Below, piece by piece: positions 1,989 to 22,600 of a stretch of 23,471 nt of DNA. The notes beneath the pieces were generated by a model. It did not search any database and was not told the origin of the DNA. It saw only the letters and a list, made by a program, of their open reading frames with translations. This stretch comes from a virus. The stretch's first letter is position 1; the number at the start of each line of letters is the position of its first letter. The stretch is from the IMG/VR virus record IMGVR_UViG_3300017783_000218, positions 1 to 23,471 of that record; one strand, given 5' to 3'. The position numbers and the translations under genes were made by a program.

Positions 1989-4900
1989 TTAACTTACATT
2001 GTTTGCACTTAGGAATCCATAATATGTACTCCCCCCATCATAAGTATAGAATACTAATATATCTTTTCCATTTGCTGTTAGTGTTGGTGCTGCTCCATTA
2101 GCCCATTGTATTATACCAGGCCAACTTACAGTTGCAGTACCACCACTTCCATCTTCCAACACCAATGTAAATCCAATTGCACGAGGGCCTGTTGGTGCGT
2201 TTGAAAGAGAAATTGTTATACTACCAGTTCTATTGATTCTAAAGTTGTTACCTTCAGTTAAATCTATATTTGTTGTTCCACTTGAATTACCTATATCGTA
2301 GTAGTTTTCGTGGAATCTTGTAGAGAATGTAGCATCACTTACATCTAAATCACCAGTTACATCTAATAAATTACCATTGAATGTTAAATTAGCTTCTGCA
2401 TTTGCAGTTCCATCACCTTCCATAGTAACAACTCTATCTTCTGCATCATTATCTACATTTAATAATCCACTTGAACCAGATGTACCAGATGAGCCCGAAG
2501 AACCAGTTTCACCTGATGAACCAGAAGTTCCACTTGTACCACTCGTACCACTACTTCCAAATAAAGTACCATCTAAACCAGATGTACCAGCAGTACCAGA
2601 CGAACCTGATGAACCACCCTCTCCAGTTATACCCGATGTACCCGAAGAACCAGAAGTTCCACCTGTTCCACTACTACCACTACTTCCGAATAAAGTACCA
2701 TCTAAACCACTTGTACCAGATGTACCAGCCGTTCCAGATGAACCAGCCGTTGATGCAGTACCAGACGAACCCGATGAACCCGCAGTACCTCTCGTACCAC
2801 TACTACCACTACTTCCAAATAAAGTACCATCTTGTCCAGAAGTACCTGATGTTCCAGCTGAACCACTTTCTCCACTCGTACCAGAAGAACCACTTATTCC
2901 ACTTGTACCGCTTGAACCACTACTTCCGAATAAAGTACCATCTTGTCCAGAAGTACCTGATGAACCAGCAGTTCCACTTACACCAGATGTTCCACTTTCT
3001 CCACTCGTACCACGCGTACCAGAAGAACCAGATGAACCAAAGAAAGTTCCATCAATACCACTTGTACCAGTTGTTCCAGAAGTACCTGATGAACCTCCAG
3101 TACCAGCAGTACCAGCGGTACCTGTTGAACCTGAAGTTCCCGAAGTACCATGTGTACCACTACTTCCAAAGAATGTTCCATCTTGTCCAGAAGAACCTGA
3201 AGTACCAGTTGTACCCGATGTACCAGCAGTTGATGAAGTACCAGATGAGCCAGATGAACCACCAGTACCAGTTGTTCCAGATGAACCAGCTGAACCAAAG
3301 AATGTTCCATCTTGTCCGCTTGTTCCACTCGTTCCACTTACCCCACTACTACCTGATGTTCCAGCACCAGAAGTACCAGAAGTACCAGCCGTACCTGATG
3401 AACCGAAGAATGTTCCATCAACACCTGATGTACCAGTTGTACCACTTGTCCCACTACTACCACTCTCACCGCTTGTACCAGATGTACCTGCTCCACTCGT
3501 ACCAGAAGTACCAGCCGTACCAAAATTAGTTCCATCTAAACCAGAAGAACCTGAAGTTCCAGTTGTACCAGAAGAACCTGATGTTCCAGTTGTACCACTC
3601 GTTCCAGAAGTTCCAGCAGTACCAAAGTTAGTTCCATCTTGTCCAGATGAACCCGAAGTACCATTTGTACCATTAGCTCCATTTTCTCCATCAATACCCG
3701 ATGTACCAGTTGTACCTGAAGAGCCAGCAGTACCAGATGAGCCACTACTACCGCTGGTTCCAGATGTTCCAGAAGTACCACTACTTCCAAAGAACGTTCC
3801 ATCTAATCCAGTTGTTCCAGATGTACCATCACTTCCTAATCCAGAAGTACCCGATGAACCTGCGGTTCCACTTGAACCAGATGAACCGAAGAATGTTCCA
3901 TCTACACCAGAAGAACCTGAAGTTCCACTTGTACCAGACGAACCTGCCGAACCACTTGTCCCACTACTTCCGCTAGTACCATTTGTACCTGATGTACCTG
4001 ATGTTCCACTACTCCCTTCAGCTGATGTACCAGAACTACCACTTGTTCCAGTTGTTCCGCTTGTTCCAGTTGTTCCAGAAGTTCCACTTGTTCCACTACT
4101 TCCCTCTGCGGATGTACCAGAAGAACCTGATGTTCCACTTGTTCCGCTTGTACCACTACTTCCACTTGTTCCAGATGTACCTGATGTACCACTACTTCCT
4201 TCAGCAGATGTACCACTTGTTCCTGCTGAACCTGAAGTTCCAGTTGTTCCGCTTGTTCCAGAAGTACCAGCCGTTCCACTACTTCCCTCAGCTGATGTAC
4301 CTGATGTACCAGTTGTACCAGAAGTACCAGCTGAACCACTTGTTCCATTAGAACCAGATGTACCCGATGTACCTGCTGAACCACTTGTCCCACTACTACC
4401 ACTCGTTCCAGATGTACCAGAAGTTCCACTACTACCACTCGTTCCATCAGAACCACTTGTTCCACTACTACCACTCGTTCCAGATGTACCAGAAGTTCCT
4501 TCAGAACCAGTTGTTCCAGAAGTTCCAGATGTACCCGATGTACCTGCTGAACCTCCACTACCAGACGTTCCACTTGTTCCAGAAGTTCCAGTTGTTCCGC
4601 TTGTTCCAGAAGTACCACTTGTACCACTACTTCCACTTGTTCCAGATGAACCTGATGTTCCGTTTGTACCTGAAGTTCCAGATGTACCAGCCGAACCTGA
4701 TGAACCTTCTGCTCCACTTGTTCCACTTGTTCCAGAAGTACCTGATGTACCATTAGTACCTGTCGAACCAGAAGAACCAGAAGTACCCGATGAACCAGAA
4801 GTACCAGCTGAACCTGAAGAACCTTCTTGTCCACTCGTACCACTACTTCCACTACTTCCGCTTGTTCCACTACTTCCAGAAGAACCACTTGAACCAGAAC

Positions 4901-7900
4901 TTCCGCTTGTACCACTTGTACCAGAACTTCCACTTGTTCCGCTTGTACCACTACTTCCACTTGAACCAGATGAACCCGATGAACCGGATGTACCTCCACT
5001 ACCACTACTTCCGCTTGAACCAGATGTACCCGAAGTTCCACTACTTCCACTTATACCACTTGAACCAGATGAACCCGATGTTCCAGAAGAACCTCCCGTA
5101 CCAGATGAGCCTGAAGTTCCACTTGAACCAGATGTACCTGATGTTCCGTATTTATCAACAATGTTTATTGTTCCAAGCATTGAACCATGAACACTACATT
5201 GGTAATATATGTTATTAGGAGCATTTTCAGGAACTCTATATTCTATTAAAGTAGAAGTACTATGAACTCCAGCTCCTGCATCATTATTTGTTGTACCAGG
5301 CACAGTTGTATTATCACCAGATTCTAATCTTAATGCAAATGGATGTGATGAACTTACATTTGAAACATCAAAGTAATATAATTCACCCCTTACAAGAGTT
5401 AATGATGGTTGGTTTCCACTATATCCATCTATTGTATAATTGTTTCCACCTGGTGTTCTAACAATGAACAAAGCTCCACCTTCTCTACCAGCAGTACCAG
5501 ATGTACCACTCGTTCCAGACGAACCTGATGTTCCAGATGTACCAGTTGAACCTGATGTACCAGCAGTACCAGATGTACCACTACTTCCAGAAGAACCACT
5601 TGAGCCGGAAGAACCAGATGTTCCAGACGTTCCTGAAGTTCCACTACTACCACTCGTTCCACTTGTTCCAGAAGTACCCGATGAACCAGAAGTACCACTA
5701 CTTCCACTTGAACCAGAAGTACCAGATGAACCTGAAGTTCCACTACTACCACTTGTTCCAGCGGTTCCACTACTACCACTTGTCCCACTACTACCACCTG
5801 TTCCACTTGAACCAGAAGTACCAGCAGTACCACTTGTTCCAGCAGTTCCACTACTACCACTTGTACCAGCAGTTCCAGAAGTTCCACTTGAACCAGATGA
5901 ACCAGCCGTTCCAGTAGTACCACTACTACCAGAAGAACCCGATGTACCACCAGTACCAGATGTACCACTTACAGCAGTTACATCTCTTTTGAAAACTTTT
6001 CCAGTTGATTCATCAATAACTAAAACTGTATCTGAACTACCAGTTTGTAATCCTACAAATTGTGTACTACCAGATGATACTAAACTACCACTTACTTCAA
6101 ATCTTCCAACAAATGAACCAGTACCAGTATTTGGTAAGAAATTTTCTCCTAAGAAATCACCAGCATTTAAAGCGAATGAAGCAGTTGCTGCATAAGATGC
6201 TGAAAGTACAGTCATCGATGCCGTTTGGTCATTTCTTACATAATCTTCAGCAGATACAGCGTTTATAGCATAAGATGCTGAAAGAGCGTATGATGCTGAA
6301 AGTACAGTCATCGATGCCGTTTGGTCAGTTCTTACAAAGTTATCAGTATTAAAATCACCAGCGTTTACGGCGAATGAAGCAGTTTCAGCATATGATGCTG
6401 AAAGTACAGTCATTGAAGCCGTTTGGTCATTTTGTATATAGTTATCTAAATTAGCAATCTCAGCAAGAGATGCCGAATCGAATCCAAATAAGTTTGATGC
6501 AGTTTGAGCTAAATCAGCGTTTCTAGCATATGATGCTGATAATACTGAACCTACTACATCACTACCTTGTACAAATCCTGCTAATCTACCACCAGTACCA
6601 ATTACTGCTTGTCCACTTGTCAATCCACTAAATGTTACTCTAACCGATGAACTATCGATTGATTCTATTGCTTGTGGAATAATCTGTCCATTTGAACCAG
6701 TTTCATAAATTTGAACTACTGGATAATCAATAGCGAAATTGTGTTGGAATGTTACCTGAGTTACATCTGAGAATGGGAATACAGCAGTATCACCAAATTG
6801 TGTTACAGGTCTAAATTTGTTTGCATCTGCATCAAATACTAAAATATCTAAATCATCAGGTACATCTATACCAACATTTTCACCTTGGTATGAACCTACG
6901 AATGATGATGTAATTCTTGGTGAGAATATTTCATCCGTTACAGTTATCTTAGATGCACTTACATCGTTTTGGAAGGTTACATCTCCGAAAAATGTTGAAC
7001 CACTATCTATTGACCTAACTACGAATCCATCATCAGGAGTAACCGATGCGGTTACAGAACCACTAAGTATTCTACTTTGGTCTAATCCTTCAATAGCATC
7101 AGCAGGAATATTAAATAATCCCTCACCACTACCACTAAAGAATCCACTTCCAGATGGTATTTCTATATTACCAATAAAAGTAGAACCACTTGTTGGAGAA
7201 AATACCCTAAACCCTTCTATATTATCAACCGATGCACTAATACCACCACTTATGATAAGATTTAATTCTAAATCTTCTAATGCTTCTGCAGGAATATTAA
7301 ATAATCCCCCACCATCACCAGTAAATAATGTACCACTAATTGGTTTATTTACGATTAAACCAGCAGTAGGGTCTACTCTTGCTTCAGCAGCACCAGATAC
7401 AATTCTATCTAATTCTAAATCTTCAAGTGCATCTAATGGAATATTAAATAATCCACCACCATCACCTTTATATAAAGATGCTGTTATTGATTGAGAAACA
7501 TGTAGAGAACCACTAATTTCTACTTTAACTGAACCTGAGTTTATATTTGAATCTAAGTTTTCAACTCTAAAGAAACCTAATGGGTCAACTGATGCAGTTA
7601 CCGAACCAGTAAATATTTTTGATGAATCAATTGCTAAGTTAGCAATATCAATGTTTGTAATCCCACTACCATCACCAGTAATAATACCACCAACATCTAA
7701 AGATTCAGAAATAATAACTGAACCACTAAATGATGAATCTACTGCAATTGATGAGGTTTCGTTAAATACTTTAAATTCAGTTTCCGATAAAGATGCAGTT
7801 GCTGAACCACTTGATAACTGAGTTACGTTTAGTGATAAATTAGCAATATCAATATTTGTTAAACCACTACCATCACCAGTAAATACTCCACCACCACCAA

Positions 7901-10900
7901 CAGTTATTGAACCAGATGTTACAATTGAACCAGTGAATACTGCTCCACCAGTTGGTGCAGTTACTACAAATGTATCACCACTAGCAACCGATGCCGTAGC
8001 AGAACCACTTGAGATAAGAGGAGCAGCTGCTGCTTGTACATTTGTTAATTGAGAACCATCACCAACAAAGAATGATGCACTTACAGATTCAGCAATATCA
8101 ACCGAACCAGTTACTGATAAATTTTTACTTCCAGTTAAGAATCCTATTGATACACTACCACTTACATCTAAAGATGATTTAAATTCTGAACCACTTATTG
8201 CCGTTACTACAAACGATTCTCCACTCTCAACCGATGCCGTAGCAGAACCACTAGCAATTACAGGTGATAAATCAGCTTGTACATTTGTTAATTGAGAACC
8301 ATCCCCTACAAATGAACCAGAGAATGAACCACTAATTTCATCAGCTTCTATTTTATTAGCTGTTATTTTTTCACTTACATCAAAACTACCAGTTACATCT
8401 ACATCTCCTTTGAGAATGTTAGTTGTTACTTCTGGAGTTGTATCTAATAAATTAAATACATTACCATATGATTCTGATTGTGCTGCGTAATAATATAATT
8501 GTGATGGTGCACTAGCTGATGGGGTAATCGTTAAGAAAGCTCCATTAGCACCAGGATTTACACTACTACTAACTACATTAATAAAGTATTGAGAACCACT
8601 GTCAGAATTTGTACCATCTAAATTTTCTGAAATTTTGAAATCAAATCCAGCATTAGAACTATCTGATAAATCAAAATAATAAGGGTTATCTTTAATAGTT
8701 TTAAATGTTGCTTTACCAACACCATCTATAAAGTACCTACTTTCTGATATTATTACTGAACGACTTGTTGGTATATTTTCTAATAAAATAGATGATGAAA
8801 CTACTAAAGAACCAGTTATAGTAGTATCACCTAATATATCAACATCACCTTGAAGAGATGAAGATGTATTTACTACAAATCCCTCATCAGGTGCAATTGA
8901 TGCGGTAAAAGAACCACTAGCTATAAAACTTCGTTGAATTACATCTTCGGAAAGTGCCGATAATGGAATATCAAATAAATCTCTACCACTACCACTAAAC
9001 GAACCACTAAATTCATCAGCTATAATCTTTGGAGTAGTAATTGATTCCGTTACATTTAATGTTCCATCTATTCTTAGATTATCTTCAATTCGTGAATCTA
9101 AGTATGGGAATTCATTAACAACATTAATAACAGCTGACCCAGCCATACCACCATGATTCAAACAATAGTAGTAAAGTTGAGTTGGTGTTTCTGATGTTAT
9201 TAATATACTAACTTGAGAACCTGCACTTCCAGCATCAATACTACCAGTAGTTACACTTGAAGTATATTCAGTTCCAGAAGAATGAATACCATTTAATGTT
9301 GTAGAAAATTTTAATGGGTGAGTTTCATTTGATGTATCTGATTGGTCAAATGTATATGTACTACCACTTACTAAATATAAATCTGGATGTATTTGTCCAT
9401 CTATAAAATATTTGTTACCATCATCAGTTGAACCAACAGTAACTATTTTTGTTAAATTATCTTTTATTTGATTTGATGATGAAATAAATACACTACCACT
9501 AATAGTTACATCATCTTCAAATCTACCAGTTGAGTTTACTTCAAATCCTCTAGTCGGATGAACCGATGCAGTTACTGAACCACTTACAATTCTAAATGCT
9601 TCATCTGTAATTGCTGAACGAGGTATATTAAATAAAGATTCACCACTACCACTAAAAATAGATGCAGATACAGTTCCACTTACATCAATATCACCATCAA
9701 AAGATGCTGATGTATTTACAACAAACCCTAAGTTTGGAGAAATAGATGCCGTTGCTGAACCACTTGATATTCTTGGAGAATCTTCAGAAAGTGCAGATTG
9801 TGGAATATCAAATAAATTAGCACCACTACCACTAAATGATGAACTAACATCAAGTTGTACATTTCCACTTACAAATAAAGAGCCACTAAATATTGAACCA
9901 CTTTCAACAGATTTTACTACAAATCCAAAGTTTGGAGAAACTGATGCGGTTACTGAACCACTTGATATTAATGGTGCATCCTCTGAAAGTGCTGATTGTG
10001 GAATATTAAATAATCCACTACCATCCCCAACAAATCCACTGGAACTTATAAATTTACTTGATGTTAAATTACCAAATATAGAAGTATCACCAAATAATGT
10101 TTGTTTATCACTTCCAGTATTATCACCAAATATATTTGAACCAGAAGAATAAATTATTGATGATGAAATAAAATCAGTAAATATTTCGTTAGCTGTAATT
10201 CTACCAACAACAGTTAAATCATTATCAATTGTTAAATCACCTTGTATAGAAGCTGATGTATTTACTACAAATCCTAAGTTAGGTGAAATAGATGCGGTTG
10301 CTGAACCACTAGCAATTCTAACAGCATCTTCAGAAAGTGCTGATTGAGGGATATTATTTAAATCCGAACCATCACCACTAAATGAACCACTAAATGAACC
10401 AGTAATTTCATCAGCTATAATTTTTGGAACATCTAATGTTTCTGTTATAGAAACACTACCACTAAATTCAGATTTTACTGAACCTGTTCCGAATACTTTA
10501 AATGTACCATCGGGTAAAACCGATGCGGTTACTGAACCAGTTGTGATTAAATTAGAAATTAGTGCATCTTCAACTAACGCAGATTTTGGTATATCAAATA
10601 ATTCCGCACCACTACCACTAAATACACTACCACTACTTAATTGAACACTACCACTAAATATAGAACCACTATCTATTGAGGTTACTCTAAATACATTATC
10701 ATCAGTTGAAGCAGTTACACTACCAGTTCCAATAAAAACTGCTTCTCTCGATACTAACGCTTCAATTGATTCTTGTGCATCATTAGAAAGTGCTGAGAAT
10801 GGTATATCAAATAAATCTTCACCACTACCACTATATTTTGAACCACTATTTAATTGAACTGCACCACTAACAAATACCGAACCACTTAATTCAGTTGTTA

Positions 10901-12746
10901 CTGAAGCCGTTGATTGTACTCTAAAGAAACCATCAGTTGAAACCGATGCGGTTACTGAACCAGTAGATATTAAGTTCGAAATAAGTGCATCATCCGTTAA
11001 TGCAGTTCTTGGTATATTGAATAATTGTTCACCACTACCACTAAAGAATGAACCACTACTTAAAAATACAGAACCTGTAAAAGTAGAACCACTTAATTCT
11101 GATTCTACAACTAATCCAAAGTTTGGAGAAACTGATGCGGTTACTGAACCACTTCTAATATTATTTGTAATAAGTGCATCTTCAGTAAGTGCTGATTTTG
11201 GTATATCAAATAACTCTGCACCACTACCACTAAATATACTACCACTACTTAATCTTAAACTACCACTAAATGTTGAACCACTAGCTTCGGATTTTACAAC
11301 AAATCCATCAGCATCAGAAACCGATGCAGTTACACTACCAGTTGCTAATAAACCAGCTTCAAAAGCAAGAACTGCTTCAACAGCGTCTTGAGCATCATCT
11401 GAAAGTGCTGCTAATGGTACATTAAATAATTTTTCACCACTACCAGAAATAAATGAACCACTACTTAAAAATATTGAACCTGTAAATGTAGAACCACTAT
11501 CTAATGAGTTTACTACAAAACCAGTATCAGGTGATACGGAAGCAGTTACTGAACCACTAATAATTAAATTCGTTTCTAATGCATCTTCGGTAAGTGCTGA
11601 ACGAGGAATATCGAAAAGATTAGCACCACTACCACTAAATATACTACCACTATTAAGTTGAACTGCTCCACTTACAAATATTGAACCACTAAATTCAGAT
11701 TTTACTGAACCAGTTGATTCTACCTTAAAAACTCCAGATGGGTCTAAAGATGCGGTTACTGAACCTGTTACGATTCTTGATGAATCAAATGCATCATCGG
11801 TAAGTGCAGTTCTTGGAATGTTAAAAAGATTTTCACCACTACCACTAAATGAAGAACCACTATTTAATTCTATATTTCCACTAACTAAAAGTGAACCACT
11901 TAATTCAGTTGTTACTGAACTACTACCAAATACTCTAAAGAATCCAGAATCATCAACAGATGCACTTACTGAACCAGTTGCTATGATTGGAGTAACTAAT
12001 GCATCAGGTGCTAGTGCTGATTTTGGAATGTTAAATAATCCCTCACCACTACCACTAAAGAATGAACCACTATTTAATTCAATAGTTCCACTTGCGAATG
12101 TAGAACCACTTAATTCAGTTATTCCTACTATTATAGTATCTGATAAAGATGATGTTCCTTCTACACTAAATCCTCCAGTAACATTTGTATCACCATTTAT
12201 TTCTAATGAACCAGTAATTCCAACTGAACCTGTAAATTCTTGCTTATCAGTAAGTTCATCACCAAAGATATTTGAACCAGATGAAAAAATAACTGAAGAG
12301 GAAATAATTTCTACAATTAATTCTCTAGCTACAATACGATTATCAACAATTAAATCACCAGTAACTCTTACATCACCATCTACATCTACATCACCATCAA
12401 ATGATGATGATACATTTACTAAGAATCCAGTATTTGGTGAAATTGATGCTGATGCAGAACCTGATAATAATCTTACTGCTTCTGGAAGGTTATTTAATTC
12501 AGAACCATCTCCACTAAATGAACCACTAAATGAACCAGTAACTTGCTCTAATTGAAGTGTTGTAACAAATAAACGATTACCATCAGCATCAGAAGCAACA
12601 AGAGCAATAGAACCAGAAGAAAGTGAACCACTCTCAGGTACACCTAAGTTTGGTTCAGCCTCATTCAGCCTTAGATATTCATATCTATTCTCCGATACAT
12701 CGGAGGGCCTTATTACTTTAACCTTTCCGCTTAATAATTGGCTCAT
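1989..12746 (-). CDS. Giant modular tail-fibre/adhesin with fibre units, cupredoxin domains and collagen-like tracts (3,585 aa)
   Basis: Order of parts: residues 1-65 are an N-terminal domain (MSQLLSGKVKVI..., RYEYLRLNEAEPNLGVP) of the type that attaches marine-myophage fibres to the tail. Residues ~70-1915 hold 21 fibre units (GDGS.L..IP or GSG..LF.IP...AL..DA....SGS.TAS). Cupredoxin-like domains 1 and 2 are embedded in them (~1108-1211, ~1335-1434). Next is a small beta domain (~1994-2057, QHNFAIDYPVVQIYE), then SASYA repeats (~2062-2195). A Gly-X-Y tract (~2260-2421), cupredoxin-like domain 3 (~2433-2533) and a second Gly-X-Y tract (~2534-3427) follow. The last 158 residues are globular and resemble phage-fibre C-termini (FHENYYDIG...ISLSNAP). 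There is no signal peptide or transmembrane helix. The frame is uninterrupted over 10.7 kb. The start is 23 bases after the preceding stop with no clear Shine-Dalgarno. A long host-recognition fibre is the likely role; family parts are recognised, the whole architecture is not. Confidence 0.92.
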   Translation of the reverse strand: MSQLLSGKVKVIRPSDVSENRYEYLRLNEAEPNLGVPESGSLSSGSIALVASDADGNRLFVTTLQLEQVTGSFSGSFSGDGSELNNLPEAVRLLSGSASASISPNTGFLVNVSSSFDGDVDVDGDVRVTGDLIVDNRIVARELIVEIISSSVIFSSGSNIFGDELTDKQEFTGSVGITGSLEINGDTNVTGGFSVEGTSSLSDTIIVGITELSGSTFASGTIELNSGSFFSGSGEGLFNIPKSALAPDALVTPIIATGSVSASVDDSGFFRVFGSSSVTTELSGSLLVSGNIELNSGSSFSGSGENLFNIPRTALTDDAFDSSRIVTGSVTASLDPSGVFKVESTGSVKSEFSGSIFVSGAVQLNSGSIFSGSGANLFDIPRSALTEDALETNLIISGSVTASVSPDTGFVVNSLDSGSTFTGSIFLSSGSFISGSGEKLFNVPLAALSDDAQDAVEAVLAFEAGLLATGSVTASVSDADGFVVKSEASGSTFSGSLRLSSGSIFSGSGAELFDIPKSALTEDALITNNIRSGSVTASVSPNFGLVVESELSGSTFTGSVFLSSGSFFSGSGEQLFNIPRTALTDDALISNLISTGSVTASVSTDGFFRVQSTASVTTELSGSVFVSGAVQLNSGSKYSGSGEDLFDIPFSALSNDAQESIEALVSREAVFIGTGSVTASTDDNVFRVTSIDSGSIFSGSVQLSSGSVFSGSGAELFDIPKSALVEDALISNLITTGSVTASVLPDGTFKVFGTGSVKSEFSGSVSITETLDVPKIIADEITGSFSGSFSGDGSDLNNIPQSALSEDAVRIASGSATASISPNLGFVVNTSASIQGDLTIDNDLTVVGRITANEIFTDFISSSIIYSSGSNIFGDNTGSDKQTLFGDTSIFGNLTSSKFISSSGFVGDGSGLFNIPQSALSEDAPLISSGSVTASVSPNFGFVVKSVESGSIFSGSLFVSGNVQLDVSSSFSGSGANLFDIPQSALSEDSPRISSGSATASISPNLGFVVNTSASFDGDIDVSGTVSASIFSGSGESLFNIPRSAITDEAFRIVSGSVTASVHPTRGFEVNSTGRFEDDVTISGSVFISSSNQIKDNLTKIVTVGSTDDGNKYFIDGQIHPDLYLVSGSTYTFDQSDTSNETHPLKFSTTLNGIHSSGTEYTSSVTTGSIDAGSAGSQVSILITSETPTQLYYYCLNHGGMAGSAVINVVNEFPYLDSRIEDNLRIDGTLNVTESITTPKIIADEFSGSFSGSGRDLFDIPLSALSEDVIQRSFIASGSFTASIAPDEGFVVNTSSSLQGDVDILGDTTITGSLVVSSSILLENIPTSRSVIISESRYFIDGVGKATFKTIKDNPYYFDLSDSSNAGFDFKISENLDGTNSDSGSQYFINVVSSSVNPGANGAFLTITPSASAPSQLYYYAAQSESYGNVFNLLDTTPEVTTNILKGDVDVTGSFDVSEKITANKIEADEISGSFSGSFVGDGSQLTNVQADLSPVIASGSATASVESGESFVVTAISGSEFKSSLDVSGSVSIGFLTGSKNLSVTGSVDIAESVSASFFVGDGSQLTNVQAAAAPLISSGSATASVASGDTFVVTAPTGGAVFTGSIVTSGSITVGGGGVFTGDGSGLTNIDIANLSLNVTQLSSGSATASLSETEFKVFNETSSIAVDSSFSGSVIISESLDVGGIITGDGSGITNIDIANLAIDSSKIFTGSVTASVDPLGFFRVENLDSNINSGSVKVEISGSLHVSQSITASLYKGDGGGLFNIPLDALEDLELDRIVSGAAEARVDPTAGLIVNKPISGTLFTGDGGGLFNIPAEALEDLELNLIISGGISASVDNIEGFRVFSPTSGSTFIGNIEIPSGSGFFSGSGEGLFNIPADAIEGLDQSRILSGSVTASVTPDDGFVVRSIDSGSTFFGDVTFQNDVSASKITVTDEIFSPRITSSFVGSYQGENVGIDVPDDLDILVFDADANKFRPVTQFGDTAVFPFSDVTQVTFQHNFAIDYPVVQIYETGSNGQIIPQAIESIDSSSVRVTFSGLTSGQAVIGTGGRLAGFVQGSDVVGSVLSASYARNADLAQTASNLFGFDSASLAEIANLDNYIQNDQTASMTVLSASYAETASFAVNAGDFNTDNFVRTDQTASMTVLSASYALSASYAINAVSAEDYVRNDQTASMTVLSASYAATASFALNAGDFLGENFLPNTGTGSFVGRFEVSGSLVSSGSTQFVGLQTGSSDTVLVIDESTGKVFKRDVTAVSGTSGTGGTSGSSGSSGTTGTAGSSGSSGTSGTAGTSGSSGTAGTSGTAGTSGSSGTGGSSGTSGSSGTAGTSGSSGTSGSSGTSGSSGSSGTSGSSGTSGTSGTSGSSGTSGTSGTSGSSGSSGSSGSSGTSGTAGTSGSTGTSGTSGSSGTSGTSGTAGREGGALFIVRTPGGNNYTIDGYSGNQPSLTLVRGELYYFDVSNVSSSHPFALRLESGDNTTVPGTTNNDAGAGVHSTSTLIEYRVPENAPNNIYYQCSVHGSMLGTINIVDKYGTSGTSGSSGTSGSSGTGGSSGTSGSSGSSGISGSSGTSGTSGSSGSSGSGGTSGSSGSSGSSGSSGTSGTSGSSGTSGTSGSSGSSGSSGSSGTSGSSGSSGTSGQEGSSGSAGTSGSSGTSGSSGSTGTNGTSGTSGTSGTSGAEGSSGSAGTSGTSGTNGTSGSSGTSGSSGTSGTSGTSGTTGTSGTSGTSGSGGSAGTSGTSGTSGTTGSEGTSGTSGTSGSSGTSGSDGTSGSSGTSGTSGTSGSSGTSGSAGTSGTSGSNGTSGSAGTSGTTGTSGTSAEGSSGTAGTSGTSGTTGTSGSAGTSGTSAEGSSGTSGTSGTSGSSGTSGTSGTSGSSGTSAEGSSGTSGTSGTTGTSGTTGTSGSSGTSAEGSSGTSGTSGTNGTSGSSGTSGSAGSSGTSGTSGSSGVDGTFFGSSGSSGTAGSSGTSGLGSDGTSGTTGLDGTFFGSSGTSGTSGTSGSSGSSGTAGSSGTTGTSGIDGENGANGTNGTSGSSGQDGTNFGTAGTSGTSGTTGTSGSSGTTGTSGSSGLDGTNFGTAGTSGTSGAGTSGTSGESGSSGTSGTTGTSGVDGTFFGSSGTAGTSGTSGAGTSGSSGVSGTSGTSGQDGTFFGSAGSSGTTGTGGSSGSSGTSSTAGTSGTTGTSGSSGQDGTFFGSSGTHGTSGTSGSTGTAGTAGTGGSSGTSGTTGTSGIDGTFFGSSGSSGTRGTSGESGTSGVSGTAGSSGTSGQDGTLFGSSGSSGTSGISGSSGTSGESGSAGTSGTSGQDGTLFGSSGSSGTRGTAGSSGSSGTASTAGSSGTAGTSGTSGLDGTLFGSSGSSGTGGTSGSSGTSGITGEGGSSGSSGTAGTSGLDGTLFGSSGTSGTSGTSGSSGETGSSGSSGTSGSSGLLNVDNDAEDRVVTMEGDGTANAEANLTFNGNLLDVTGDLDVSDATFSTRFHENYYDIGNSSGTTNIDLTEGNNFRINRTGSITISLSNAPTGPRAIGFTLVLEDGSGGTATVSWPGIIQWANGAAPTLTANGKDILVFYTYDGGSTYYGFLSANNVS
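2466..5146 (-). repeat. Long proline-free Gly-X-Y (GTS/GSS/GTA) tract, ~894 codons
   Basis: The encoded peptide is an almost unbroken series of G-[T/S]-[S/A/T/G/N] triplets (GTSGTSGSSGTSG...), lacking proline. N- to C-terminal, there is first an irregular part with occasional QEG, AEG, NGT and SDG triplets. Then come four GTS-AE-GSS interruptions (+ strand near 4285, 4197, 4104 and 4014, ~90-base spacing). Last are twelve [L/Q/V/I]DGT[F/L/N]FG units between ~3900 and ~2567, spaced 95-158 bases. Codons vary synonymously (GGT and GGA; ACA and ACT; AGT, TCA and TCT), so the repeat is kept at protein level rather than as a simple DNA satellite. It probably forms a rod or extended spacer. Confidence 0.9.
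4378..4499 (-). repeat. Near-identical 50-bp tandem duplication inside the Gly-X-Y tract
   Basis: Bases 4378-4427 and 4450-4499 are identical at 49 of 50 positions, offset by exactly 72 bases (24 codons, eight Gly-X-Y triplets). The single difference is C versus T at the twelfth base. This is a plausible trace of recent in-frame expansion of the tract. Confidence 0.85.
5147..5449 (-). other. Cupredoxin-like domain 3, complete potential Cu ligands
   Basis: This covers residues ~2433-2533 of the giant fibre, from YTIDGYSG to NIVDKYG, placed between the two Gly-X-Y tracts. Candidate ligands are His2468 in SSHPFAL and the C-x2-H-x2-M motif YYQCSVHGSM (Cys2517, His2520, Met2523). The order His ... 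Cys-His-Met is that of a type 1 copper site; plastocyanins space His and Met further apart (x4). Copper binding is inferred. Confidence 0.75.
5482..5968 (-). repeat. Short proline-free Gly-X-Y tract, ~162 codons
   Basis: Residues ~2260-2421 of the giant fibre consist of GTS/GSS/GTA triplets. The tract starts directly after FKRDVTAVS and ends at GTAGREGGALF, where cupredoxin-like domain 3 begins. It shows none of the DGTFFG interruptions seen in the longer tract. Confidence 0.88.
6196..6429 (-). repeat. SASYA repeats with 36-bp direct DNA repeats
   Basis: Three copies of a 36-base sequence lie at 6196-6231, 6292-6327 and 6394-6429. The first two are identical; the third differs at two positions visible by eye. 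They encode the phrase DQTASMTVLSASYA, and further SASYA/TASFA variants lie between them. Offsets of 96 and 102 bases keep the frame. The phrase is common in phage fibre shafts. Confidence 0.85.
8445..8743 (-). other. Degenerate cupredoxin-like domain 2, ligands lost
   Basis: Residues ~1335-1434 of the giant fibre align with domain 1 from YFIDG through YFDLSDSSN to QLYYY. At the ligand positions, however, it has YYYAAQSESYG: Ala1421, Ser1424 and Tyr1427 replace Cys, His and Met. The HPLKF histidine is replaced within SNAGFDFKIS. The fold is probably kept as a structural module without metal. Confidence 0.7.
9113..9423 (-). other. Cupredoxin-like domain 1, complete potential Cu ligands
   Basis: Residues ~1108-1211 of the giant fibre run from KYFIDGQ to VINVVN. 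Candidate ligands are His1143 (NETHPLKF) and YYYCLNHGGM (Cys1195, His1198, Met1201). The pattern is that of the plastocyanin-like domains found in marine myophage structural proteins, recognised from memory. The domain sits between fibre units rather than at a terminus. Confidence 0.78.
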
Positions 12747-13673: not shown

Positions 13674-16600
13674 TTAATCCTGCAGTGCTAATGAGAATGG
13701 TGTTACAAGTGAGAATAACGATTTAGAGAATGTTCTACCCTCTAATGTACCAGAAGCTTGTTTAATAACAAGACCTCCACCAATTCTAAAGTCACCAAGT
13801 TCGTTACCAGAAGTAAAGAATACTCTACCTCCACCAATTTCAGTAATTTCCTTATCAGGATCAGGTACACCATCACCACCTTGGTTAGGAGGTAATGCTT
13901 TATAAGTTACACCAGCACCAGCGTAAGAGAAATCATGTCCAGTTGTAATAATTAAAGAACCAAACTCTTCAACAGGCGCTTGTCTAGCAGCGAATTGGAA
14001 TTGAGTTCTTAAATATCTATTAGTTTCTGCAGTTTCTTTCTTTTGTTCGTTAATAACAACAGCTGCACTTCCATACACTCCATTGTAATACGATTCAGCC
14101 GCTCTGATACTTCTCTCATTACCACCATAGATGATATCAGTTGCGATAGCATCTAAAATAAATCCAGTATCTCTATAACATTTTTCTTCATTGTAATCAA
14201 AAGTAGGGAATGCCGCATTTGTGTACGATATTGCCTTACCTTGTAATACTTTTTTCTCCGCTCTAAGTGCATTAGCTCCATTTTTATTTAATAAGAATGG
14301 GAATACTAATTGTTGTTGTTTGATTATCTTTTCAGCCAACCCTTTTGAGAAATCAATACCATCAGTTGTTTGTGGTTTTTGTTCCGTAGTTGCGATTGAA
14401 GGAATATAGTAGTAGAATGTACCTGCTTGTACTGCTCTAGCATTACCACCATATGTTAAATCAGTTGCTACTGCATCTATGATGTATCCTAAATCTCTAC
14501 TACAACTAACTTCGTTGTATTCAAACTCACTCCAAGACGAACTTAGATAAGCGATTGTTTCTTTTTGTATAAATGTTGTGTTATCTCTTAATAACTGAAC
14601 ACCATTTTTAATTTCAGCTGATGGATTTATGTATTCTAAGTTTTGAACTACATTTTGTGAAGTTCCATTAGCAAATCTAATTCCATCAATTGTTGGGTCT
14701 AACTGATTAGCTTCTGATGGAGTACCACCCTTAGTTGCTCTTGATGGGTATCTCCAATAGTATAATCCAGCTACTCTACTTCTTTCATTTCCACCGTAAA
14801 CTAAATCAGTTACAGCTGCATCAATTATATATCCAGTATCTCTTCTACATTTATCTTCGTTGTAAGTTACATTACTCCAAGAAGATGATATAAATTCGAT
14901 AGTTTCATTTTGTACGAAACTTCTATTGTTTCTTAGTAATTCAGCCGATGCAGATACTTCAGATGTTGGTGAAACGAATATTGTATTTTCTAATACTTTT
15001 TCAGCCAATCTAGCAGAGTAGTTAATTCCATCAATTGTTTGATTTAATTGTCCGTTTGGATTAGTTTGGTAATTAACAGTTGCATCTGATGGGTATAAGT
15101 AATAGTACTCACCATTTACTCTACCTCTTTCATTTCCACCATATAAGAAATCCGTTGCTACACCATTTAAGATATATCCAGTATCTCTCTTACATTTATC
15201 TTCATTGTAATCAAATGTACTCCAAGAAGATGAGATGTAAGCGATTACTTCATTCTGAATAAATTCTTTATTATCTAAAAGAACTTTATTTCCAGCTAAT
15301 CTCTCAGCCGATGCCGTTACGAATATTTCGTTTTGTACTAATTTACTTGCCACATCACCCGCGTACTTAATACCCGTTGTAGTTGGTTCTAATTGAGTTG
15401 ATGTTGCTGATGAAGGATATTTGTAGTAGTATTCTCCTGCAATCTTACTTCTTTGGTTACCACCATAAAGTAAATCAGTAGATACTGCATCTAAAATATG
15501 TCCAACATCTCTCATACAAGTTGCTTCTACATAATCAAACCCTTCCCAAGAAGAACTTAGGTAAGAAATTGATTCAGATTGAATAAACTCTCTATTATTT
15601 CTAATTAATTCAACTGATGCTGATATTTGAGCTGATGGGAAATCAAATGTTACACCTTTAACGATTTGTTCAGTTAATTGTGATGCGTAATTGATACCAT
15701 CAATAGTTTGTTGAGCTTGAGAACCAGTTCCATTAGCTTCAGATGGGAATTGATAGTAGAACTTAGCGTTTACTACTGATTGAGATACGATTCCATATCT
15801 TAAATCTTCTGCTACACCATTTACAATAAATCCAACATCTCTTCTACACTTAACATCATCATAATCAAATCCTATCCACGAAGAAGAAATATATTCTACA
15901 ACTTCATTTTGTATAAATGGTACACTTTCAGTAATCAATCCATATGTAGTTAGAATATCAGAACCAGTTAATAATGAACCATATTCAAATGCAGGTTGAA
16001 CAACACTTACTGAATTTTGCTCAGTTCTAACAAATGTGTGAACTGATTGTGGTAAATGTTTAATTGCTCCATTTGATGCTGATACGAATGTGTGAACTGA
16101 TTGAGGTAGATGTTTTACAGCGTTTGTTGATGCAGATACAAATGTGTGTACCGAACCAGAAGCACTTCCACCATCTCCTACATTTATTGTAAATGTACCA
16201 GTTTGTCTTTCTAATCCATCATTTGTAGCCGATACAAATGTATGTGTGTTTGTATATGAGGAAGAACCTATGTTTATATCAAACGTATTTGTAGTTACAT
16301 TAGAAATTTCTAACCATCTTCCATTTGGATAATCTATTCCAGCTCTTGGATATGATTTTTCAACAGTATCACCATCCAATACACAAGTATAAGTTAGAGA
16401 ATTATTATCTAATTTGATATAATCACCATTACTAAAATTATGATTAGCTATTGTTATAGTAACATCACCAGTTGATGCGTTATAAGGAGCATCAGTTACA
16501 GTATGTGATGTAGTTCCAACTGAAGTAATAACTATTGATTGTTCAGCGTATGGGTCAGAACCACTTCTTGGATAAGAATGAACAGATGTATCACCATCTT

Positions 16601-19600
16601 GGTCACAAGTAAATGCGAATGATTCATTTTCTAATACTACACTTCTACCAACACCTATACCATGCTGTCCAACAGTTACAATCATATCACCACTTAATGC
16701 GTTGTAATCAACATCCGATGGTGTAAAGAATTTATTTGGACCCGAAATACCAACATTTACAGTCATTGTAGTATCAGTAATATCCGTTATCTTCATTGAA
16801 CGTCCAGCGAATGGGTCAATACCAACTCTTGGATATGATTTAACTGATTGATTATTATCCATATCACAAGTGAAAGCAAATGATTCAATATCTAAAATGA
16901 TACCTTCACCAATACTTAAACTATGACTTTCAACAGTCATTACGAATTCACCCGTTGCTGGGTCATAAGATGCAGTTGTTGGATTAAATTCTACATTAGG
17001 TCCAGACGCTCCTACGTTAACAGTTATAGTATTATTGGTTTTTGAAAGAATTTCTAATTCATTATTGTAAGCAGGTTGTCCAACTGAAGGTAATTTATCT
17101 TCAGTTTTGTTGTTATCCATATCACAAGTAAATGTGAACGATTCAGGTGATAAGTATATACCCTCACCCTCAGTATAAGAATGACTTTCAATTGTTAATA
17201 CAAACTCACCATTTGATGGGTCATAAGTTGCGTTAGTTGGAGTTGAATCTGCTTTTCCATTAGCTATTGCATCTGATACAATTGCGAATGAAGATGAAAT
17301 TGTGTTAAAAATAGTAACATCAGTTATACTACTACCAGTTGCTGGTGAGAATGAAGTTACTTTAATTCCATTATCAGTATTCAAACTTCCTGTTTGAACA
17401 AATAATGTTTCTTTGTTAACTAATTTTTCAATTAAATCTTTAGTATAGATTAATGCATCAGTAGTTTCATCTAATTGATTACCAGTTGCTTCAGATGGGA
17501 ATCTATAATAGAATTCACCAGCAGTTAATGCTCTTTGGTTTCCACCATATCTTAAATCAGTAGCAACAGCATCAATTATGAATCCAGTATCTCTACTACA
17601 ACTTAATTCATTGTATTCAAAGTTTGGATATTTAGCGTTTACGAATGCTACAGTTTCAGCTTGTAAGAATTCTCTATTTTCTCTAATTGTATCATAAACA
17701 AATTCAACTTCATTTGATGCAGTTTGGAAAACAGCTCCACTTACTATTTCAGTTACTATATTTTGTACATAATCAATAGCAGTTACAGTTGGGTCTTTTT
17801 GTCTATTTTCATTTGGTACACCACCACTAATAGCTGCTGATGGGAATCTGTAATAATAATCTCCAGCATTCACACTTCTTTCATTTCCACCATATAATAA
17901 ATCAGTAGAAACTGCATCTATAATATGAGTAATATCTCTTTTACAAGTTATTTCATTATAAGTAAATCCATCCCACGAAGATGATAAGAATTCAATTGTT
18001 TCATTTTGAATAAATTCTCTATTATTTCTAATCAATTCATAAGAACCACTAACTACTGCGGATGCAGTTTGGAACGTATATCCTCTTACAATACTTTCTG
18101 CTAATCTACCAGCATAATTAATACCATCTAAAGTTTGTTGTAATTGTGCACCTTGTGCCTGAGATGGGAAATCATAGTAGAATTTACCATTGAATATAGA
18201 TGCAGAATTTGCGTTATACAACATATCTTCAGCTGCCCCACTTATAATTCCTCCTATATCTCTACTACACTTACTTTCATCATATGATGCAGTTGACCAA
18301 GAAGATGATAAATAAGCAATTGATTCACTTTGAATAAATCCAATATTTTCTTTTAATAAGTTATATGCTGCAATTGTTGTTGGTGATTCTGATGGAGCTC
18401 CATACTCAACAACAGTTGGTAATGAACCAGTTCCATTTTTAACAATATTAGTTACAATTGCAATTGATGATGAAATTAATCTTTGTTGTAATCTATCTCC
18501 AAATGATTCAGATGTAAATTGAACTGCGTCAGTAACTTTAATTAAGTTATCAACATCAGAGTTATTTTTAACAACGTTTGGTTTAACACCCAATCCATTT
18601 TGTAATATATTTTCAATTATACCAACTGATGTATTTACTTTATTAATTTCAATTGATGAACCTACAATAGAAGAAGTAAACTGATTTGCTGAAGTTACTT
18701 TAATATTGTTTTCAGCATTAGTTACTAATTTTGGTAAAATACTTATTGAGTTATTTTCAGTTCTAACAAAAGTATGACCTGCCTGAGGTAAATGTTTAAC
18801 TGCTCCTTTAGATGCAGATACAAATGTATGTAATGATTGAGGTTCATGTTTAACAGCGTTTGCTGAAGCTGATACGAATGTATGTAATGAACCTGAAGCG
18901 CTTCCACCATCACCTACATTTATTGTAAATGTACCAGTTTGTCTCTCAATACCATTTGCTGCAGCTGATATAAATTTGTGTTCTCCTATATATGATGATG
19001 CACCAATATTAATATTAAATGTATTCGTAGTTACATTAGAAATTTCTAGCCATCTTCCAGATGGGTAATCATAACCAGGTCTTGGATATGATTTAGTAGT
19101 TGTATTATCATCTAATACACAAGTATAAGTTAATGCGTTATCAGCAACTTTAACATAATCACCATTACTAAATCCGTGATTGGCGATTGTTAGTGTTACT
19201 ACACCTGTTACTGAGTTGTATGGAGCGTTTGTTGGAGTATGTGATGTTGTACCTACCGAAGTAATCACAATTGATTGTTCAGCGTATGGGTCAGAACCAC
19301 TTCTTGGATAAGAGTGAGTTGTAGCATCTCCATCTTGGTCACAAGTGAACGCAAAAGATTCATTTTCTAATACTACACTTCTTCCTACTCCTAAACCAAA
19401 TGATTCAGTAACAGTTAGAGTCATATCACCACTTAAAGCATCATACGATGCAGTAGTTGGTGTAAAGTATTTATTAGGACCTGATATACCTACATTTACC
19501 GTCATTGTATTTGAAGTTACCGAAGTAAGTTTCATTGAACGTCCAGCGAATGGGTCAATTCCAAATCTAGGATAAGATTTAGTTGATTGGTTGTTATCCA

Positions 19601-22600
19601 TATCACAAGTAAATGCAAATGAACCAGTACTTAATACTATACCTTCTCCAACACTTAATGTGTGAGTTCCAGTTGTAATTACGAAATCACCATTAGCAGG
19701 GTCATAAGTTGCATTAGTTGGAGTCCATTCAATATCAGGATCCGATGCTCCTACATTTACAGTTATAGTATCAGTAGTTTTTGCTGTTATCTCTAATTTA
19801 TTAGTATAAGCAGGTTGTCCAACTGAAGGTAATTTGTGTTCAGTTCTGTTCCCATCCATCGTACAAGTAAATGTAAACGATTCTGGTCTTATATAAATTT
19901 CATCTCCAATATCCAAAGTATGATTTGGAATAGTAACTACAAAGTTTCCATTTGATGGGTCATAAGTTGCTGTTGTTGGAGTAAATGAACCTGTACCATT
20001 TTCTATGATATTAATAATTTCTCCAAATGATGAACTTACAATACCAAATTCAGTATCAGTTACATAAGTACCACTAGCAGTTACATAAGAACCAGTTGTT
20101 AGTTGTTGTGGAGTATCTAATGTATCATCAAACCACTTAGCTAATGCAAATGGTGTATCATCGGTTCCGAATCTAATAATATCATTAATAAACCCTACAC
20201 TACGAGTTACAAATGCTGATTCAACTTCACTACCACTTAGTGAAGAAGTAAATTGAGATGTATCATTAATTTTAATTAATCCTTCAATATTTTCAGTTAA
20301 TATAGGTAAAGTACTTACTGAATCTCGTTGAGTTCTAATAAATGTATGAGCTGATTGAGGTAAATGTTTCAATGCCCCATTGGAAGCTGATACAAAAGTA
20401 TGAACTGATTGAGGTTCATGTTTAACTGCTCTATTGGATGCTGATACGAATGTATGTAATGAACCAGAAGCACTTCCACCATCTCCTACATTAATTGTAA
20501 ACGTTCCATCTTGTCTCTTCAATCCATTAGTAGTTGCTGATACAAATGTATGTGAACCTACATATGGTGAAGAACCTATATTGATATCAAATGTGTTAGT
20601 TGTTACATTTGAAATTTCTAACCATCTTCCACTTGGATAATCGTAATTAGGTCTTGGGTAAGATTTTGTAGTTATATTTTTATCTAATACACAAGTATAA
20701 GTTAGAGAATTATCATCTAATTTTATGTAATCTCCATTATTGAAATTGTGGTTAGCTATTGTAATAGTTACATCACCAGTTGCAGAATCATATGGTGCAT
20801 CGGTTACACTATGAGAAGTAGTTCCAACTGAAGTGATTTTTATTGATTGCTCAGCGTATGGGTCAGAACCACTTCTTGGATAAGAATGAGTAGTTACGTT
20901 ACTATCCATATCACAAGTGAATGCAAATGATTCGTTTTCTAACACCACACTTCTACCAACACCCAATCCGAATGATTCAGTAACAGTTAGAGTCATATCT
21001 CCACTTAGAGAATTGTAAGAAGCAGATACAGGTGTGAAATATTTATTCGGACCTGATACTCCTACATTAAATGTCATTGTAGTATCAGTTACAGCCGTAA
21101 GAGGAAGTGAACGTACTGAATACGGGTCAATACCAACTCTTGGGTAGGATTTAACTGATTGGTCGTTATCCATATCACAAGTAAATGCGAATGATTCAGG
21201 TGACATTACTACACCTTCACCAATACTTAAACTATGACTTGCTACAGTTACAACAAATTCCCCAGTTGCTGGGTCATAAGATGCAGTTGATGGATTGTAT
21301 TCTACATTTGGACCCGATTTACCAACGTTTACAGTTATAGTATCTGATGTTGTTGATTTAATTGTTAATCTATTATCATAAGCAGGTTGTCCAATTGATG
21401 GAAGTTTGTGCTCAGTTCTATTTCCATCCATATCACAAGTGAATACAAATGATTCAGGTTTTAGATAGATACTATCACCACTATGTAAATTATGTTTAGG
21501 TACAGTCATTAAGAAATCACCATTAGCAGGGTCATAAGTTGCTGTTTTAGGTGTGAATGATTCAATACCTGTTTTTATAATTCCAGTTACAATATCATAT
21601 GATTCACTAACTTCAGTTTGATATGAACCACTCAATGCAATTGATGAAGATACTGAATTAAATGATGTTACTTTTATATTTCCATCACTATTAGAAACTT
21701 TAGATGGAGTTTTAGTTATTAATTGAGATAAAACACTTATTGAGTTATTTTGAGTTCTAACAAAAGTATGACCTGCCTGAGGTAGGTGTTTTACTGCTCC
21801 ATTAGAAGCTGATACAAAAGTATGAACTGATTGTGGTAAATGTTTTACAGCGTTTATTGATGCTGATACAAATGTATGTATTGAGCCACTTGCACTTCCA
21901 CCATCTCCAACGTTTATTGTAAATGTTCCAGTTTGTCTTTCTAAACCATTTGTTGTAGCTGATACAAAAGTATGAGCTGATGTGTAAGATGATGAACCAA
22001 TGTTAATATCGAAAGTATTAGTTGTTACATTAGAAATTTCTAACCATCTTCCAGATGGGTAATCATAACCAGGTCTTGGATATGATTTCTCAACACTATT
22101 ACCATCTAATATACAAGTATAGGTTAGAGAATTATCAGAAAGTTTGATATAATCTCCATTACTAAATCCATGTCCTGTGATTGTTATAGTAACATCACCA
22201 GTAGATGCATCATAAGGTGCATTAGTTATAGTATGGGATGTAGTTCCAACTGAATTTATTACAATTGATTGTTCCGCATATGGGTCTGAACCTAATCTTG
22301 GGTAAGAGTGAACAGATGTATCACCATCTTGGTCACAAGTGAAAGCAAAAGATTCGTTTTCTAATACTACACTTCTTCCTACTCCTAATCCGTGCTGTCC
22401 AACAGTTACAACCATATCACCACTCAATGCGTTGTAATCAACATCAGTTGGTGTAAATAATTTATTCGGAGCCGATACTCCAACATTAACAGTCATTGTT
22501 GTATCAGTAACATCAGTTATAATCATTGAACGACCTGCAAATGGGTCTATTCCAAATCGAGGGTAAGATTTAACAGATTGGTTATTGTCCATATCACAAG

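Follow-up and report, generated by a model that had tools for sequence, protein, structure and literature searches.

The window analysed here is a stretch of 23,471 bases of virus DNA (positions 1 to 23,471 of IMG/VR record IMGVR_UViG_3300017783_000218), and its minus strand carries a single open frame for a protein of 3585 residues in which lie three cupredoxin-like domains, D1, D2 and D3, each of about 110 residues (Table 1). The protein matches PHROG tail fibre families best, with E values as low as 1.5e-93 and chiefly by way of its collagen-like part. A repeat of the FSGSG-x-x-LF[DN]IP type occurs ten times in the region of residues 230 to 1881. D3 is preceded and followed by long collagen-like Gly-X-Y runs, the second continuing with breaks from residue 2534 to 3429; Pfam Collagen matches over the protein at E 5.9e-99. 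D1 sits inside the repeat region and D2 starts 118 residues past the end of D1, while D3 is flanked on both sides by collagen-like runs.

Three related domains with and without copper ligands

Used as a query against the window, D1 found D2 at E 5.2e-14 (35% identity) and D3 at E 1.1e-9 (41% identity), and the three domains are therefore homologous. D1 and D3 have the type 1 copper ligand set, a His followed by Cys-His-Met, at equivalent sequence positions, whereas all four ligands sought in D2 are replaced, the residue aligned to the first His being Phe (F1368 by count) and the others Ala, Ser and Tyr. Each of the eleven residues named in the first-pass annotation (H1143, C1195, H1198 and M1201; A1421, S1424 and Y1427; H2468, C2517, H2520 and M2523) was found at its place in the open frame, and the observation that D2 aligns with D1 yet has no equivalent His was likewise correct. 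Cys, His and Met are scarce in the whole fibre (2, 12 and 7 residues, respectively), and each Cys belongs to a Cys-x2-His-x2-Met motif; a chance origin of the motif was rejected, as only 1.3e-5 copies are expected from the composition. Sequence comparison thus confirms a set of homologues, two of them carrying all four putative ligands and one carrying none.

Table 1. Position of the fibre gene, its three domains and their predicted ligand residues in the window.
Feature	Residues	Position	Strand	Basis
Tail fibre protein holding D1, D2 and D3		1989..12746	-	single open frame; PHROG tail fibre families
D1, cupredoxin-like, full ligand set	1102-1210	9117..9443	-	AlphaFold2 and VIA-align
H1143 codon, first ligand of D1	1143	9318..9320	-	aligns with first His ligand of amicyanin
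Cys-x2-His-x2-Met of D1 (C1195, H1198, M1201)	1195-1201	9144..9164	-	amicyanin spacing
D2, cupredoxin-like, ligand-less (F1368, A1421, S1424, Y1427 at the ligand positions)	1329-1438	8433..8762	-	homology to D1
Collagen-like Gly-X-Y run N-terminal of D3	2261-2425	5472..5966	-	55 triplets
D3, cupredoxin-like, full ligand set	2426-2536	5139..5471	-	homology to D1; PHROG 677
H2468 codon, first ligand of D3	2468	5343..5345	-	position in open frame
Cys-x2-His-x2-Met of D3 (C2517, H2520, M2523)	2517-2523	5178..5198	-	position in open frame
Collagen-like Gly-X-Y run C-terminal of D3	2534-2818	4293..5147	-	95 triplets

Predicted structures of D1 and D2

The AlphaFold2 model of D1, built with 39 sequences (alignment A1, 39 of 44 dereplicated copies), had a mean pLDDT of 93.9 and a pTM of 0.85; the block containing the Cys and second His reached a pLDDT of 95 and the next block, with the Met, 89. 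VIA-align, run on the Foldseek candidates, placed this model on a cupredoxin fold in all 50 of the listed rows, many of which are the same few proteins. Its best match was nitrite reductase (2dv6_A, residues 28-131; Z 8.7, rmsd 2.4, 93 residues aligned, 22% identity), rusticyanin (2cal) gave a Z of 8.4 (rmsd 2.9, 98 aligned), and Z 8, the level taken as safe, was reached by 11 of 998 chains. The first His (residue 45 of the model) lies just ahead of strand 47-50 and the Cys (97) closes strand 92-97, while the loop preceding strand 108-111 carries His 100 and Met 103. A type 1 copper site has this layout. The model therefore points to a cupredoxin fold, that is, a Greek-key beta-sandwich, for D1. 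The D1 model also matches two predicted beta-sandwich proteins of pithoviruses in BFVD, A0A481Z6J5 (E 7.1e-7) and A0A481Z7Q7 (E 5.5e-6).

Not all of the structural results favour this assignment. With D1, Foldseek gave weak matches in the PDB, the best of them (E 5.1e-3) missing the level of E 0.001, and although 39 of the 50 listed rows were cupredoxins, nitrite reductases or multicopper oxidases, the other 11 were not cupredoxins. The D2 model, built with 16 sequences (alignment A2, 16 of 44 dereplicated copies, D1-type rows included), was only moderate (pLDDT 73.7), its Foldseek list was mixed, with 9 of 50 listed rows having the cupredoxin fold and the others including Ig, filamin and peptidylarginine deiminase, and its best VIA-align matches, rusticyanin (Z 7.4, rmsd 2.9, 102 aligned) and 2dv6 (Z 7.2, rmsd 2.9, 94 aligned), fall under Z 8. 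Homology to D1 is thus the main ground for the fold proposed for D2.

It could be argued that these are ordinary Ig-like domains, in which a Tyr-Tyr-x-Cys segment resembles the Ig core motif and the likeness to a copper site is coincidental. Ig domains are indeed named in some public records (a note on PHM1_104 of phage P-HM1, and the title of the MED4-213 entry M4QD42), D1 touches antibody chains in phmmer at E 0.04, and the D2 Foldseek list is rich in Ig and filamin rows; however, the rows listed by VIA-align for D1 include no Ig chain, a statement that does not extend to unlisted families. A classical Ig core, moreover, needs a second Cys, where D1 and D3 have one each and D2 none, and 37 of 46 diverse copies of the domain retain all four copper ligands (see below). 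Mainly on the structure comparison of D1 and the Cys count, and with the mixed D2 list weighing the other way, we consider an Ig-like identity highly improbable.

Relationship to known cupredoxins

In a profile alignment with amicyanin, two plastocyanins and pseudoazurin, the four ligand positions were paired residue for residue (His-His, Cys-Cys, His-His and Met-Met; pair E 2.3e-4, probability 44%). A second profile, of five cyanophage plastocyanins, two classical plastocyanins and amicyanin, aligned only over the 21 columns of the Cys-His-Met loop, but its score of 28.4 exceeded those of 200 column shuffles (10.2 ± 2.2, maximum 18.4) and of the reversed profile (11.5). A bridging member of the family is the second copy in the fibre PSSM2_298 of phage P-SSM2, which the family profile finds at E 8.6e-7 and which itself, in plain phmmer, matches a solved cupredoxin at E 8e-4; its 17 matches up to E 1 comprise 16 cupredoxins or copper enzymes and one cytochrome f chain, and the whole protein scores 23.3 bits against Pfam PF00127, above the cut-off of 21.2. 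The cupredoxin-like fold of D1 and the placing of its ligands as in copper proteins, both proposed in the first-pass annotation, are borne out by these comparisons and by the model.

The sequence link has its weaknesses, which tell against this reading. The PSSM2_298 copy taken alone scores only 20.6 or 19.8 bits against PF00127, under the cut-off, and PF00127 touches 3 of the 39 family members (best E 0.059), while neither Pfam, PF00127 included, nor NCBIfam recognised the window's own domains. When the ligands were masked, the score against the plastocyanin profile fell to 15.3, compared with a maximum of 15.4 in 100 shuffles; the sequence signal is therefore mostly the copper loop itself, and sequence alone cannot separate descent from convergence on that loop. 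A direct sequence search of the PDB with D1 or the A1 profile gave only weak matches to antibody, HYDIN and other chains (best E 0.041), and solved cupredoxins were reached by sequence search only through the bridging PSSM2_298 copy.

Presence and absence of the ligand set

In order to avoid selecting copies by their ligands, the four ligand columns of the profile were masked and the collected DNA was searched again. This blind search gave 230 matches, of which 212 cover the four positions, leaving 46 at less than 70% identity, and 18 were set aside as incomplete. All four ligands are present in 37 of the 46 copies and none in eight, and a single copy has the Met alone. The all-or-none fraction of 0.978 compares with a mean of 0.431 and a maximum of 0.609 in 10,000 column permutations, a test that ignores relatedness and is inflated by it. 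The distinct rows among those set aside include two with Asn-Asn-Met and three with His-Cys-His and a gap at the Met position; of these three, one stops at a contig end and two are aligned with all four ligands by the A1 profile used below.

Two other tallies were made with searches that contain ligand information. Twenty phage records (10 named phages and 10 IMG/VR contigs, every one chosen for having a match) were scanned whole with the A1 profile, which includes the ligand columns, giving 52 distinct stretches: 40 cover the four positions (31 with four ligands, eight with none and one with one) and 12 are incomplete, two of which (locus L166) are halves of one domain that jointly have all four ligands; six loci in bacterial contigs were left out of this count. 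The split domain, at 69200-69740 of the 102-kb relative G001, is a further copy in a 3362-residue frame, where an insertion divides the profile match. A first tally (loci L001-L113 and the window) rests on searches of which one kept the best 80 of 454 confirmed places, and whose patterns partly hold ligand residues, so that these loci lean to ligand-bearing copies. It comprised 80 distinct copies: 74 had all four ligands and four had FASY or FTSY at these positions, the remaining two being one incomplete copy with Asn-Asn-Met and one cut before the Met.

Because relatedness inflates the permutation test, changes of ligand state were counted on a tree of 61 copies, unrooted and made with the ligand columns left out, on which the one-ligand copy was counted as ligand-less. 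Five changes were found (3-5 in bootstraps), of which at least two are forced by well supported branches, and the ligand set seems, from these sequences, to have switched as a whole on more than one occasion. On the other side, the tree is built from few columns, with 26 of its 58 inner branches open, and the bootstraps leave it unsettled; D2 stands on a long branch (1.58) whose placing is unsupported. We assume that the ligand-free forms arose by loss, because the cupredoxins outside the family have ligands, the direction being one that an unrooted tree cannot show.

The ligands might instead be a relic of a cellular cupredoxin ancestor, weakly constrained, with the fibre making use of the sandwich only. 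Such a view can draw on the several ligand-less copies, and on the ratio of nonsynonymous to synonymous change (dN/dS) of D1 in the window compared with an 82% identical relative, which at 0.785 also counts against the copper-site reading that we favour, although it comes from only about nine synonymous changes. Weak constraint, however, predicts many copies with one to three ligands, and only one of the 46 copies is of this kind, compared with an average of 57% under column permutation. This explanation is already strained, and we regard it as very unlikely.

D2, for its part, shares its ligand-free state with an 81% identical relative, which has Phe, Thr, Ser and Tyr at the four positions, and the pairwise dN/dS to the relative is 0.25 for D2 and 0.23 for D3. 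D2 thus appears to be under purifying selection, in agreement with the suggestion in the first-pass annotation that the fold is kept where the ligands are not. Co-variation of the ligands among homologues, which was proposed there as a check on the copper site, is also what we observed, the ligands coming and going as a set.

The same pattern would fit any metal. It is conceivable that the domains descend from cupredoxins and have a real metal site, but that in seawater virions the site holds another metal, such as zinc, or mostly none, and serves only to hold the fold. The very low concentration of free copper in seawater and the persistence of D2 without ligands are in keeping with this, whereas His-Cys-His-Met, with its single Cys, is the combination that textbooks give for type 1 copper and is unusual for zinc, and the match to copper proteins extends to individual residues. 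We judge this alternative somewhat unlikely, if a serious one.

Distribution of the domain

Searches with tblastn at E 0.001 against 50,697 phage records gave 232 matched records for D1, 323 for D3 and 18 for D2; nearly all are named as Synechococcus or Prochlorococcus phages or as cyanophages, with a few phages of Pelagibacter and Methylophilales. The 20 records scanned whole have from one to five matched places each, in different proteins, and carriers include the proximal tail fibre of P-SSM2, the fibres of Mosig and Melnitz and an unnamed protein of the Autographiviridae phage P-SCSP2. D3 itself matches PHROG 677, the baseplate wedge tail fibre connector, at E 1.3e-21. In gp9 of P-SSM7 (L116, 3071-4294) a T4 gp9/10 N-terminal domain is joined to a cupredoxin-like C-terminal domain, which may place the latter at that end of the cyanophage baseplate connector where the fibre makes contact. 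In PHM1_104 of P-HM1 (L117, 5629-11127) a subtilase domain occurs together with two cupredoxin-like copies; Pfam PF07686 is noted in its record, but a Pfam search up to E 0.1 did not give PF07686 for this protein. A free-standing, single-domain form of 112 residues, PSS2_gp080 (L121, 3992-4330), is labelled as a baseplate wedge subunit and has only the Met of the four ligands.

On the evidence of these matches, the domain is a widespread module of marine phage tail and baseplate proteins and is not special to this fibre. The pattern of two full ligand sets and one lost set, to which the first-pass annotation drew attention, is real here, but the arrangement is not peculiar to this protein, several ligand-less copies being found elsewhere.

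The module also occurs in bacterial contigs. In four of these (L179, L180, L181 and L183; three from marine Gammaproteobacteria and one from SAR86) it ends proteins that by eye are lipoprotein-like, with all four ligands present. The pattern used to search for bacterial copies also holds some ligand residues, and these loci too lean to ligand-bearing copies. In a contig of a Pelagibacteraceae genome bin (L182, 2699-4459) the module lies in a gene that by eye resembles one for a podophage tail fibre, and the bin therefore probably holds phage DNA.

These locations bear on a further possibility, namely that the copper domain is a receptor-contact element through whose metal edge host surface proteins or glycans are bound or recognised. 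The module is found in tail fibres, in the baseplate connector and in the proximal fibre protein, the edge carrying the copper loop is the docking edge of known cupredoxins, and the same domain ends proteins of marine bacteria that by eye resemble surface lipoproteins; D1 and D3, on the other hand, are internal to the chain and away from its C-terminal tip. We consider such a role unlikely, though worth keeping in mind. As to the host, psbA was sought in three relatives of the window (G001, G002 and G003, fragments of 102 kb, 75 kb and 36 kb) and none was found, which neither shows nor excludes a cyanobacterial host.

Neighbouring genes

Three further genes of the window lie on the minus strand as well. 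Another giant tail protein, at 13674-23471 and at least 3265 residues long, has repeated blocks, matches PHROG 5342 (tail fibre) in 14 stretches and runs past the edge of the window. The gene at 588-1046 encodes a protein like tail fibre assembly chaperones (Pfam Phage_tail_APC, E 1.2e-17), and that at 1053-1979 a protein of 308 residues with repeats such as IPSGLFDNNT, which by eye resemble BspA-like leucine-rich surface repeats; the latter has one Pfam match, far under the cut-off, and matches PHROG 9915 (function unknown). The G+C content is about 0.31-0.36 over most of the window but 0.41-0.48 at positions 2001-6000, a rise that mostly coincides with the collagen-like section of the fibre gene.

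Proposed role of the metal site

Taking the structural, profile and ligand results together, we favour the view, with a probability of about 60%, that the domain is an exchangeable beta-sandwich module that decorates tail proteins. Its standard form would carry a type 1 copper site, and versions lacking the ligands would be retained for their fold. Marine phages would insert one such module of cupredoxin fold into their tail fibres and baseplate proteins, much as Ig-like decoration domains are inserted elsewhere, the standard module having its His on an early strand and the Cys-x2-His-x2-Met on a short, amicyanin-type loop before the last strand. The site would bind copper after the virion leaves the reducing, copper-poor cytoplasm of the host, and the bound metal would fix the domain's exposed end in a conformation serving stability and contact with the cell surface. 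The first-pass annotation offered three roles for copper, all conjectural: stiffening of the shaft, sensing of redox state, and attachment to a host surface that bears copper. Where this exposed end is not needed, the four ligands would be lost together and the sandwich would stay as a spacer or protein contact, as may be the case for D2. The binding of metal, the time of its loading, the direction of ligand change and the function in stability or adsorption are all matters that we infer. A difficulty for this scheme is that cupredoxins as a rule receive their metal outside the cytoplasm, after export, whereas phage fibres are made within it.

Proteins of ocean phage tails and baseplates have repeatedly made use of the fold of the cell's copper electron carriers, and most copies retain the ligands across deep divergence. 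Many annotations of 'hypothetical' or 'tail fibre' protein thereby become a testable statement about metal in virions, for which ligand-bearing and ligand-free copies offer a natural paired set for experiments, with a bearing on metals in phage adsorption and on marine copper speciation. A more far-reaching idea, which we regard as speculative and doubtful, is that marine phage tails carry loaded type 1 copper sites and use the copper at the host surface, as a counterpart of the proposed iron 'Trojan horse' in which the metal is bait or glue for metal-handling surface proteins of the host, and that virions form a small pool of marine copper ligand. On assumed numbers, six trimeric fibres each with D1 and D3 would give 36 sites per virion, so that the metal bound at 1e10 such virions per litre would come to about 6e-13 M. 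Such a quantity is negligible in relation to total dissolved copper, but not in relation to the free copper ion.

Comparison with known systems

The fold and ligand set are known from cellular copper proteins. A search of titles and abstract starts in the open-access literature, outside which lie most subscription journals and preprints, found no description of phage tails with a cupredoxin or copper domain; the occurrence thus appears undescribed in the literature searched, although absence is not proven.

Of the cellular proteins, amicyanin (PDB 1aac) has the same arrangement: after a first His, the loop that leads into the last strand carries Cys-x2-His-x2-Met, identically spaced. The first-pass annotation was right that this loop is shorter in D1 and D3 than in plastocyanin, but did not recognise the spacing as that of amicyanin. 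The module differs in having Pro after the first His, where amicyanin has Asn, and in being a domain inside a phage fibre, whereas amicyanin is a free periplasmic electron carrier that accepts electrons from methylamine dehydrogenase; given its setting in a phage tail fibre, the module is not classed as an amicyanin. The part of nitrite reductase that best matches D1 (2dv6, 28-131) is the N-terminal part of the Hyphomicrobium protein and belongs to a cellular enzyme. Plastocyanin (PF00127) aligns with the module at all four ligand positions in the four-cupredoxin profile, and at the Cys, His and Met in the 21-column alignment.

Plastocyanin genes are known in cyanophages, and six separate plastocyanin-like genes (66-72 bits against PF00127, frames of 112-131 residues) occur in five of the 20 scanned records, one or two in each. 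In contrast, PF00127 touches only two virion-protein copies of the module in these records, both under the cut-off (19.8 and 19.0 bits). An origin of the module from the phages' own plastocyanin gene was considered and has no support: PF00127 is strong in only those five records, and it matched none of the relatives G001-G003.

Among virion proteins, the Ig-like decoration domains of phage tails are, like the module, beta-sandwich inserts, but they have no copper ligands and a topology other than the one predicted for D1. The fibres of T4 (gp37) and of alterophage R22Y are described as having iron-binding HxH motifs, in which histidine pairs bind octahedral iron (PMC11705849). Unlike these, the 3585-residue fibre contains no HxH motif, but it resembles them in that metal binding is proposed to take place in the tail fibre itself.

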